From assembly GCF_003610915.1 (NCBI RefSeq), contig NZ_NSDJ01000001.1:3968001-4032000 (forward strand): a stretch of 64,000 nucleotides of DNA, read 5' to 3'. Position numbers and translations under genes: made by a program. Every line of letters starts with the position of its first letter. The stretch's first letter is position 1. Under the pieces are notes generated by a model. The model was not told the origin of the DNA. It made no database searches and was given only the letters and a program-made list of their open reading frames with translations. Positions 3,579 to 31,577 of this stretch are shown here, one piece after another. The DNA is from Rahnella variigena (GTDB lineage: Bacteria > Pseudomonadota > Gammaproteobacteria > Enterobacterales > Enterobacteriaceae).

Positions 3579-3719
3579 AGTCAGCATGCTTCCACGTGGC
3601 CCGCCTAAACGGGCGTTAATCAAAAATTCTTGCCGGGTTGGCGTATATCATTCGACAGCGCGTCCCTTGTTCCGGAAATTCGCGCACAGCGGGCTCACGT
3701 CCGCTGCCTGTTGCCTTCA

Positions 3720-28418: not shown

Positions 28419-29315
28419 ATGAAAGTCCTGATAACCGGCGCAACCGGGCTCATCGGTCGAAAACTCACCGGGCGACTTCTTGAACAATCTCATCAGATTA
28501 CCGCACTGAGCCGCGCCCCTGAACGAGCGGCGAAGCTGTTAGGCTCGCAGGTTCAGGTATGGGAAACGCTGGAAGGCAAAACCACCCTCGACGGTTTCGA
28601 CGCCGTCATCAACCTTGCCGGTGAGCCGATCGCGGACAAACGCTGGACGAAAGAACACAAAGCCCGGTTATGTGAAAGCCGCTGGCAGCTCACTGAAAAA
28701 CTGGCGACGCTGATTAATGCCAGTCAGACGCCACCTTCAGTCTTCATTTCCGGTTCAGCGGTCGGGTATTACGGCGATCAGGGGCAGGCGCTGGTGCCGG
28801 AAGATGAGCCGCCGAACAAGCAATTTACCTGGCAACTGTGCGCCCGCTGGGAAGCCCTTGCAATGTCCGCACAAAGCCCGTCCACGCGAGTTTGTCTGCT
28901 GCGAACCGGGATCGTACTGGCCGAAAAAGGCGGTGCGCTGGCAAAAATAGTGCTGCCCTTCCGCGCCGGTCTCGGTGGCCCGATCGGCGATGGTCAGCAA
29001 TATATGCCGTGGATCCACATCAATGACATGATTGACGGGATCCTTTTCCTCCTCGCCCACGAAACGCTCTCAGGGCCGTTCAATATGGTATCGCCTTATC
29101 CGGCACGTAATGAACAATTCAGCGCCCTGCTCGGGCAAGTCCTCCACCGTCCGGCGTTTATGCGCGCACCTGCGCCTGTGGTTCGTTTGCTGATGGGTGA
29201 ATCAGCAGTGCTGGTGCTGGGAGGTCAGCGAGCCGTGCCACGCAGACTGGAGGCCGCAGGGTTTGAATTTAAGCATCAGGAATTGAAGGAAGCACTGGAG
29301 GATTTGCTGGCGTGA
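28419..29315 (+). CDS. yfcH: TIGR01777-type sugar-nucleotide epimerase-like protein YfcH
   Basis: Extended short-chain dehydrogenase/reductase family protein; activity unknown. The NAD(P)-binding glycine motif is at the N-terminus ([19 protein letters not shown]). [24 protein letters not shown] and the C-terminal [14 protein letters not shown] are diagnostic of the TIGR01777 group. 298 residues. E. coli has folX between yfcG and yfcH; here there is no room for it. Confidence 0.93.
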
Positions 29316-29350: not shown

Positions 29351-29370
29351 GGGGATGTTTCGGCTTCTCA
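29351..29370 (+). repeat. Extra 20-bp copy of the element's left end
   Basis: It reads the same as 29417–29436 with one difference in 20 (GGCTTC for GGTTTC), 66 bp upstream in direct orientation. The rest of the element does not follow, so it is a remnant or a duplicated end. Confidence 0.7.
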
Positions 29371-29416: not shown

Positions 29417-29655
29417 GGGGATGTTTCGGTTTCTCAATAACTGCGCTCACATAGGCTATTTCGCCGAAACCGAGCAGAGGGGAAAAGCTTTTCCCCTCTG
29501 CACTCCCCTCGCTTTTTCACTGCGCGCTGTCGCTGGAATGAAGGACATGTTCCGGCACATTGGTGTGTGGCGCAAAATGTCATCGCTCCGCGATGCCCTC
29601 ATTTCAGGATTCGAGCCTCTGGTCTCGAACCATTCATTCGGTGCCATTTTTGAGC
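29417..29655 (+). repeat. Structured intergenic element, copy 1 (plus orientation)
   Basis: Ordered inverted repeats: TCGGTTTC (29426–29433) with GAAACCGA (29466–29473); a perfect 28-bp palindrome at 29474–29501; then an outer stem GCGCAAAATG (29570–29579) with CATTTTTGAGC (29645–29655) enclosing CATCGC-TCC-GCGATG (29581–29595) and TTCGAG-N8-CTCGAA (29610–29629). The same plan appears in copy 2 with different stem sequences. Non-coding; function unknown. Confidence 0.75.
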
Positions 29656-29724
29656 ACGCCAATCAACCTATCTAAAAGATAAAAAACGGTCAGCCGTTGA
29701 ATTTAAGATCTCACGGGCGAATCA

Positions 29725-29957
29725 GAAATCTTGCTGAACGGAGCGGCTTCGAGACCCAGGGCTCGAAGACCGAGAGAAGGAACCGCAAAGCGGCAAGATT
29801 TCCAGCCTGTCACTGTGGTTGCTGAAACATAGCCAGCGAGCGAAGCACTTGTTGAAAAGGCGAGGAGGAATCCAAAGGAGGAAAAGCACTTTCCTCCTTT
29901 GGGCGGTTTCGGCGCAGAAAATTATGTGAGCACAATTATTGAGAAACCGAAACGTCC
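29725..29957 (-). repeat. Structured intergenic element, copy 2 (minus orientation)
   Basis: In plus coordinates: outer stem GAAATCTTGC (29725–29734) with GCAAGATTTC (29793–29802), enclosing CTTCGAG…CTCGAAG (29747–29768) and a CCGC/GCGG mini-hairpin (about 29783–29793). Next come a 13-bp stem CCAAAGGAGGAAA (29872–29884) with its complement (29890–29902), and CGGTTTC (29904–29910) with GAAACCG (29943–29949). Order and spacing mirror copy 1 in the opposite orientation, ending 25 bp before the DppA-like stop. Confidence 0.75.
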
Positions 29958-29981: not shown

Positions 29982-31577
29982 CTACTCCTTCACATCCACC
30001 TGATAAAAAACATGTTTCCCAAACGGATCCACTTCATAGCCGGTCACTTCTTTGCGGACCGGTTCGAAAATGGTCGAGTGGGCGATCATCACCGCAGGGG
30101 CCTGATCGTGCATCATCTGCTGCGCCTGCTCGTAAAGTGCGACGCGTTTTGCATGATCGGTGGTTTCTTTCGCTTCGGTAATCAGCTTATCGAACGGTGC
30201 GTAACACCATTTGGCTGAGTTCGAACCGCCCTTCGCGGCGTTACAGGTAAACAGCGGACCGAAGAAGTTATCCGGGTCACCGTTCGCCGTCGTCCAGCCC
30301 ATCAGAGCCGCCATGTGCTCGCCGTTACGGATGCGGGTCTGATATTCGCCCCATTCGTAACTGACGATATGCGCTTTGACGCCGATTTTCGCCCAGTCCG
30401 CCTGGATCATCTCCGCCATGCGACGGGCATTCGGATTATAGGGACGCTGAACCGGCATCGCCCACAAGTCGATATCAAAACCGTTCGGCATTCCGGCTTC
30501 GGCCAGCAGCGCTTTGGCTTTCTCAGGCGAATAATCGTAATCCACCAGCTTGTCGTTATAGCTCCAGACACCGGTCGGCAGCAGCGTTTTGGCCACGGTT
30601 CCGGTGCCATGGAATACCGCTTCGATGATTTGCGGTTTGTTAATCGCCATGGTCAGCGCCAGCCGTACTTTCACATTATCCAGTGGCGCTTTCTGCGTGT
30701 TGAACGAGAGGAAACCGGTGTTAAGGCCAGCCTTGCTCATCAGATTGATGTCTTTATTTGCACGCATACGCTCAAGATCGGCCGGATTCGGGAACGGCAT
30801 CACCTGACACTCGTTTTTCTCAAGTTTAGCAAGACGCATCGAAGCATCAGGGGTGATGGTATACACCAGACGGTCAATCTTAGATTTGCCCTGCCAGTAT
30901 TCAGGGAACGCCTTGTACAGCAGACGCGTGTCTTTCTGGTATTGCATCAGCTCGAACGGTCCGGTTCCGACAGGATCCTGATCGACCTTTTCCGGCGTGC
31001 CGGCTTTAAGCATCTGATCGGCATATTCCGCAGAGAGAATCGATGCGAAATACCACGCCAGATCCGCCACGAATGGCGCTTCCGGACGGGTCAGATTGAA
31101 GCGGACAGTGTAGTCATCCACCTTATCAATGCTGCCGATAAGGTCACCCATTTTCAGGCTGTCGAAATTCAGGTAGGTGCCGCCGGAAATTTTATGGTAC
31201 GGGTTATTTTCGTCTTTCTGACGCATGAACGAGAAGATCACGTCGTCGGCGTTGAAGTCGCGCGTCGGCTTGAACAGTTTGTTGCTCTGGAATTTCACGC
31301 CCTTGCGCAAATGGAAGGTATAGGTTTTACCGTCCGCACTGACATCCCAGCTTTCCGCCAGGCTAGGGATCAGCTCCGTGGTACCGATTTTAAAATCCAC
31401 CAGACGGTTATAAATTGGCGCCGCGCTGGCATCCACAGAGGTGCCAGAGGTGTAAAGTTGCGGGTTGAATTGCTCAGGCGAACCTTCAGAACAATACACC
31501 AGCGTTTTTGCAGAAACGCCACCTGTGATGGCCAGCGCCAGTAAACCTGTGCTTATTTTTAATATGTTGTGTTTCAT
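29982..31577 (-). CDS. Dipeptide/heme-type ABC transporter substrate-binding protein (DppA-like), orphan
   Basis: Periplasmic solute-binding protein of family 5 (peptide/nickel/heme type). A Sec signal peptide is visible (MKHNILKISTGLLALAITGG, cleavage likely after VSA). The mature protein starts KTLVYCSEGSPEQFNPQLYT and carries the family motifs DGKTYTFHLRKGVKFQ and PVGTGPFELMQYQ. 531 residues, near E. coli DppA (535), and its cysteine pattern is DppA-like. No permease or ATPase genes adjoin it, so it probably feeds a dpp-type importer encoded elsewhere. It is divergent from pepT. Confidence 0.85.
   Translation of the reverse strand: MKHNILKISTGLLALAITGGVSAKTLVYCSEGSPEQFNPQLYTSGTSVDASAAPIYNRLVDFKIGTTELIPSLAESWDVSADGKTYTFHLRKGVKFQSNKLFKPTRDFNADDVIFSFMRQKDENNPYHKISGGTYLNFDSLKMGDLIGSIDKVDDYTVRFNLTRPEAPFVADLAWYFASILSAEYADQMLKAGTPEKVDQDPVGTGPFELMQYQKDTRLLYKAFPEYWQGKSKIDRLVYTITPDASMRLAKLEKNECQVMPFPNPADLERMRANKDINLMSKAGLNTGFLSFNTQKAPLDNVKVRLALTMAINKPQIIEAVFHGTGTVAKTLLPTGVWSYNDKLVDYDYSPEKAKALLAEAGMPNGFDIDLWAMPVQRPYNPNARRMAEMIQADWAKIGVKAHIVSYEWGEYQTRIRNGEHMAALMGWTTANGDPDNFFGPLFTCNAAKGGSNSAKWCYAPFDKLITEAKETTDHAKRVALYEQAQQMMHDQAPAVMIAHSTIFEPVRKEVTGYEVDPFGKHVFYQVDVKE

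Follow-up and report, generated by a model that had tools for sequence, protein, structure and literature searches.

In the 64-kb window (the whole stretch of DNA analysed, 64,000 nucleotides), positions 29424–29952 hold a single non-coding inverted dimer of about 530 bp, which lies between two convergent ORFs from the ORF list: a 298-aa ORF on the plus strand (28419–29315), which we take to be yfcH-like, and a 531-aa ORF on the minus strand (29982–31577), which presumably resembles an ABC-transporter substrate-binding protein. An earlier note on this DNA described two structures in opposite orientation; these are the halves of one element, and the end hairpins, both palindromes, the outer stems, the mini-hairpins and the TTCGAG/CTCGAA hairpins that it named are all present where it placed them. 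The limits of the element follow from BLAST copies and from the positions of its two E-type end motifs, i.e., TGAGAAACCGAAA at the right end (29940–29952, plus strand) and TTTCGGTTTCTCA at the left end (29424–29436, minus strand). The motif search that located them also found an outlying extra copy with one mismatch at 29358–29370 on the minus strand.

Each half, from the centre outward, consists of a three-helix module of about 100 nt, one arm of a long-range stem, a palindrome and an end hairpin, and the two divergent modules are separated by an A+T-rich central spacer (29660–29715, read from the sequence). The left module, recognized by profile search and alignment, is of the alpha type with its sense strand on the minus strand (29561–29659). 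The right module, recognized by inverted-repeat search and alignment of modules, is of the beta type with its sense strand on the plus strand (29716–29816), where its helices are P1 (29725–29734 with 29793–29802), P2 (29747–29756 with 29759–29768) and P3 (29783–29786 with 29790–29793). An inverted-repeat search places a palindrome of the GCAGAGGGGAAAAG type on the left (29474–29501) and one of the CCAAAGGAGG type on the right (29872–29902). In both end hairpins, read directly from the sequence, CGGTTTC pairs with GAAACCG: 29427–29433 with 29466–29472 on the left (whole hairpin 29427–29472), and 29904–29910 with 29943–29949 on the right (29904–29949).

The outer arms, 80 nt each, show 76% complementarity and form the sole inverted repeat of at least 45 nt that an ungapped search reported in the window. 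Compared with shuffles, the 529-nt element gave z-scores of −12.2 in DNA folding and −13.7 in RNA folding, values reached by 0 of 100 shuffles in either case. In both kinds of folding, the predicted structure ties the halves together through the long-range stem that closes the core, with its left arm at 29508–29519 pairing with its right arm at 29852–29864. The element has no match at the gathering score in Rfam 15, its five sub-threshold hits being unrelated families; the only gathering-score match in the window is a nuoG RNA (RF01748) at 3589–3629 on the minus strand. A simple scan found no sigma-70-like promoter, and a central promoter pair for divergent RNAs is unsupported. Terminator-like sites were likewise no commoner in a simple scan than in shuffles (1 found vs. 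1.0 expected), and a role as an intrinsic terminator is therefore unsupported.

The window element is one copy of a long, mosaic, palindromic repeat family. BLAST searches of its own genome with the two halves returned 42 and 45 matches (40 candidates scored each), and a profile begun from one module found 56 modules in 27 fetched stretches, corresponding to about 30 elements. A covariance model run over the whole genome likewise gave 56 modules among the 150 candidates scored. Four sequence types can be told apart among the modules (alpha, beta, gamma and delta). The earlier note held that only the first and last hairpins share sequence between the halves; this has to be revised, as left and right halves are homologous throughout and a profile begun from one module finds the other. 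The outer ends are of two kinds, the TGAGAAACCGAAA type and GTGGGC-type hairpins, the latter often beside hexamers such as AAGGTC and TTCAAC. There are 18 exact genome matches to TGAGAAACCGAAA, all at or just beside element copies; the window copy carries the end motif at both ends as terminal inverted repeats, and many other copies end differently. Arrays of hexamers (TTCAAC, AAGGTC and TTCAAA types) were seen at element ends (L064, L070, L073 and L208), in another genus too. At a further locus (L124:354-962), amplification has been local and in tandem: three alpha-type modules stand as direct repeats at intervals of about 177 bp, next to one of the beta type.

The inverted geometry is a property of the family. 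The fetched loci contain 329 module matches, 280 of them distinct sequences, and among distinct adjacent module pairs within 320 nt, 126 of 132 diverge, six point the same way and none face each other, so that two units in inverted orientation, a feature of REPINs, are also found here. Before removal of duplicates, 143 of 150 close pairs were divergent, with a median spacing of 57 nt, and 36 modules were unpaired. The gaps that bear elements are mostly between convergent genes (61 convergent, 33 tandem and 5 divergent; n = 99, simple ORF caller), compared with 61, 223 and 105, respectively, among other gaps of at least 40 bp (n = 389; Fisher p = 8e-19). When false ORFs overlapping modules were masked and the window was left out, the element gaps were 71 convergent, 36 tandem and 5 divergent (n = 112) and the others 48, 185 and 94 (n = 327; p = 8e-22). 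Ten flanking proteins were scanned, of which eight belong to ordinary metabolic, transport or envelope families and two have no match; no transposase family was found among them.

The earlier note proposed that paired arms had changed together between the two halves. Two copies alone are insufficient for this claim, but covariation is seen in 56 own-genome modules and in 150 modules from a wider set. A structure was drawn by hand on a MAFFT alignment of the 56 own-genome modules, 54 distinct rows of which were scored; it has 8 pairs in P1, 10 in P2, which includes a bulged A, and 4 in P3. Of the 1188 cells, 94.9% pair, whereas slid controls pair in 29–49%, a comparison that tends to favour the structure simply because it was drawn on this same alignment. 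Changes on both sides occur in 12 of 22 pairs (168 cells), and the covariation score is 0.389, compared with 0.130 in shuffled and at most 0.115 in slid versions. Two of five shuffle measures were unremarkable, namely the number of pairs with both-side change, which 51 of 500 shuffles reached, and further pair types, reached by 498 of 500.

From 195 matches in 100 loci, the best 150 were taken for the wider alignment, which was made against the covariance model and hence leans to the structure. L181–L202 and rows that plainly belong to other organisms are not in it, and genera g115 and g23 are represented among the 45 matches dropped. Here, 95.4% of 3186 cells pair, both-side changes occur in 13 of 22 pairs (399 cells), and the covariation score is 0.360 vs. 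0.120 in shuffles, with further pair types as the one unremarkable measure of five (158 of 500). RNAalifold run on these 150 modules recovers the P2 and P3 pairs, and P1 is absent. As for the phylogenetic background, parsimony on a tree built from the 55 unpaired columns only, a rough stand-in, counts about 48 Watson–Crick-to-Watson–Crick changes over 13 of 22 pairs, a number that recombination between copies may inflate. Stems are linked through G-T intermediates, e.g., CCTGAAG/CTTCAGG, CCTGGAG/CTTCAGG and CCTGGAG/CTCCAGG. The bulged A is kept in 149 of 150 modules, and the P3 mini-hairpin has a GNA triloop in 136 of 150. In many copies, then, changes on both sides preserve the base pairing of the module, and since paired bases changed together, selection seems to maintain the fold itself. 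With the element multi-copy and such changes in many copies, neither of the outcomes that the earlier note had named as counting against it (no other copies, or no covariation above phylogenetic background) was obtained in the tests run.

Which strand folds can be approached through the mismatches. When modules are read outward, G-T outnumber A-C mismatches by 31 to 2 in the own-genome alignment (56 modules) and by 65 to 4 in the wider one (150 modules), although the copies are related and these counts are therefore not independent. One doubtful pair contributes 34 of the 65 G-T cells, and without it the counts are 31 vs. 4 and, for the own-genome alignment, 18 vs. 2. The palindromes read outward lean the same way (36 vs. 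5 in 104 distinct palindromes, with a detection scoring that treats both strands alike). G-A mismatches are commoner still in the wider set, where 90 G-A and 10 A-G compared with 8 C-T or T-C give the same asymmetry. An excess of G-T over A-C indicates a single strand that folds, the outward one in each half, and this suits RNA made from either side better than one excised DNA strand. For the GTAG and CGTC families of REP/REPIN sequences, G-T pairs in stems have been read as an indication that the repeats are transcribed (PMC3733652). The earlier note left the choice between a structured RNA family and a non-autonomous mobile element; the asymmetry favours the structured RNA. Single-sequence RNA folding leaves the strand unsettled, as predicted energies do not consistently favour the sense strand (sense vs. 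other strand, −29.0 vs. −32.1 kcal/mol for alpha, −36.7 vs. −34.8 for beta and −32.4 vs. −28.5 for gamma).

Matched arms could also arise by mutation, if template switching at hairpins corrects one arm against the other with no selection on the fold. Such correction would fit the near-perfect palindromes, which turn over as wholes between orthologous sites, e.g., CCAAAGGAGG vs. CCAAAAGGGG types at L061. However, an excess of G-T over A-C confined to one strand is not expected from it, and the module stems are joined by G-T intermediates and keep their bulge and triloops. We consider this explanation quite improbable.

The family belongs to Rahnella and a few related genera. The covariance model matches all 14 genomes of the genus, with 9 to 113 matches each (best 150 candidates per genome scored). 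At the family level, 7 of 198 genomes matched (20 candidates scored per genome); they represent 4 of 154 genera, of which one contributed a single weak match. At the order level, 3 of 295 genomes matched, in 2 of 99 genera (13 candidates per genome). With so few candidates scored, misses are possible and the counts at all three levels are bounds. BLAST with the window element returned 12 plasmid records, all Rahnella, and nothing from an E. coli set. An exact module pattern occurs in 115 stretches of a contig collection, and among the matches listed most are Rahnella, with a few scattered other organisms. In a relative from another genus (L214), the element lies between the same two genes, with flanks 78% and 84% identical. 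No paper on such a Rahnella element was found in the open-licence literature, judged by title or start of abstract.

Orthologous sites were then compared at the window site in 13 same-genus relatives and at eight more sites in up to five, giving 45 rows (18 sites prepared and nine typed, with parts of the L063 and L066 sets typed by script alone). One site, L075 (G000:C1:2903900-2906800), was excluded: its flanks adjoin each other in the own genome but are separated by about 7 kb in five relatives, as if a segment beside the element had been lost. Both modules are present in 18 rows, one module in 3, and only ends, palindromes or fragments in 8; by script, 16 rows have no module, E-type end or family palindrome. 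No clean empty site was seen by eye among the 13 relatives at the window site or among the 32 rows at the other eight; the earlier note had proposed looking for such sites in sister strains. In 4 of the 18 two-module rows the sides are exchanged (the window site in G001 and G008, L066 in G001 and L070 in G003), i.e., the modules and at least one palindrome change sides and the flanks stay, which would amount to an inversion or to replacement by an inverted copy. These rows fall at 3 of the 8 sites having a two-module relative; the G008 contig ends inside the right palindrome, and at L070 the partner module also differs in type (alpha vs. gamma). L063 in G005 may be another side-swapped case. 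Where the element is shortened to one fused palindrome, a deletion seems to have run from one repeat to another at the palindrome arms. At the L062 site, G013 carries an insertion with a small reading frame (L263).

A second hairpin family, around CCCCTTCGCAGGGG, is present at the compared sites that lack the element. Its pattern is present in all 16 rows without element pieces and in 0 of the 29 other same-genus rows, with two exceptions by eye at the window site, where G006 keeps an element fragment and G010 has a related-looking hairpin pair missed by the pattern. The family has 131 exact matches in the own genome and 40, 111 and 132 in three relatives (G001–G003), and often occurs in divergent pairs about 100 bp apart (L223, L225, L228, L230 and L245–L250); none was found in the 64-kb window with one mismatch allowed. 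On megaplasmids, 12 gaps beside fhuE in 6 records show a less tidy pattern: five have a module (one of them also the second family), five the second family alone, and two neither, namely R. sikkimica and pRAHAQ01, where the hairpin is interrupted. The inverted pair found inside the second-family hairpin of pRAHAQ01 (L224:1222-1497) resembles IS50/Tn5 ends. The chromosomal sites behave as if a two-sided hairpin device were kept between convergent genes, with recombination changing which one; recombination between copies could explain much of the site turnover. Parasites that share tolerated positions may, however, give the same picture as selection on a device.

That unrelated hairpins hold the same sites is also what might be expected of a double-stranded DNA element, i.e., a cruciform or protein-binding site relieving supercoiling between convergent genes. 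BIMEs bind gyrase or IHF, and both the location between convergent genes and the strong DNA folding agree with such a role. However, both strands of a cruciform fold at once and the strand asymmetry would be unexpected, making this explanation unlikely.

The dispersed copies, together with a site occupancy that differs between relatives, bear on the remaining alternative, a selfish DNA element of the MITE or REPIN kind, non-autonomous and mobilized in trans via single-stranded DNA, whose hairpins would serve enzyme recognition and whose 3′-end location would reflect tolerance. Symmetric end motifs fit such an element. The conserved bulge and triloops fit it as well, since GNA triloops are stable in DNA too and a transposase that reads DNA hairpins could use such features as well. 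Tolerated parasites likewise show enrichment between convergent genes (PMC3049150). However, the Y1 (RAYT) transposase, PF01797, is absent from the own genome, in a search whose positive control was found in 5 of 14 named genomes. Module pairs spaced 140–5000 nt apart, considered as a possible parent element, gave 7 cases (two being one copy) with no enzyme by eye. The largest frame among them lies at L159:2879-3668, where two opposite modules 595 nt apart enclose a small gene; by its Pfam match this is an ordinary gene for a winged-helix DNA-binding protein and not a transposase. Neither a target-site duplication nor a clean junction was seen by eye, the flanks often being repeats themselves, and the one plasmid gap that lacks the element has an unclear junction. 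In addition, if one strand were excised, there would be no reason for the asymmetry to run outward in both halves. Of the mobile-element half of the earlier claim, then, the variable occupancy stands and the signs of transposition were not found, and we regard a selfish element as possible but doubtful.

We infer the function and movement of the element from these patterns, and put at roughly even odds, about 50%, the reading that it is a BIME-like mosaic repeat on which selection acts to maintain folding at the 3′ ends of genes, probably in RNA form, and whose copies are renewed as they recombine with one another. Read-through from either of the convergent genes would let the outward strand fold as RNA, and the folded end would act as a two-sided 3′ boundary that guards messages from 3′ exonucleases, slows opposing polymerases, or both. 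Recombination between copies sharing symmetric ends would replace and invert them. A more specific form of this BIME-like reading, which we offer tentatively and think rather unlikely to hold in full, is a two-way boundary built from two divergent copies of one structured RNA; whichever convergent gene is read through, its transcript would be capped by the far copy. Such a boundary would be interchangeable with the unrelated second hairpin family, with selection keeping some device while recombination swaps or flips which one.

Among known repeats, BIME, REP and REPIN sequences, as described in PMC3733652, are likewise extragenic, palindromic, often oppositely paired and mostly between convergent or unidirectional genes. 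However, their units are 20–40 bp, whereas the element here is about 530 bp and adds a three-helix module to the palindrome. It also differs from REPINs with a RAYT in that its own genome lacks a Y1 transposase, and it was found here only in Rahnella and a few genera. ERIC (RU-1) and YPAL are enterobacterial intergenic repeats that fold into hairpins. The present element is larger and has divergent modules; the likeness to YPAL is by description alone, and the ERIC2 primer sequence gave 0 matches in the window with up to 3 mismatches. The pneumococcal BOX element resembles it in being modular, predicted to fold if transcribed and over-represented between convergent genes, with modules gained and lost between strains (PMC3049150). 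BOX is a boxA-boxB-boxC series, whereas the Rahnella element is an inverted dimer, and the likeness noted is one of description.

What palindromic repeats do in bacteria has been asked for a long time, and repeats that are short give little signal of covariation. Here the repeat is long, most of the 14 genus genomes carry it in tens of module copies, and it shows enough compensatory change to suggest selection for folding of one specific strand. The Rahnella element is thus a model for separating 3′-end function, selfish spread and copy replacement.
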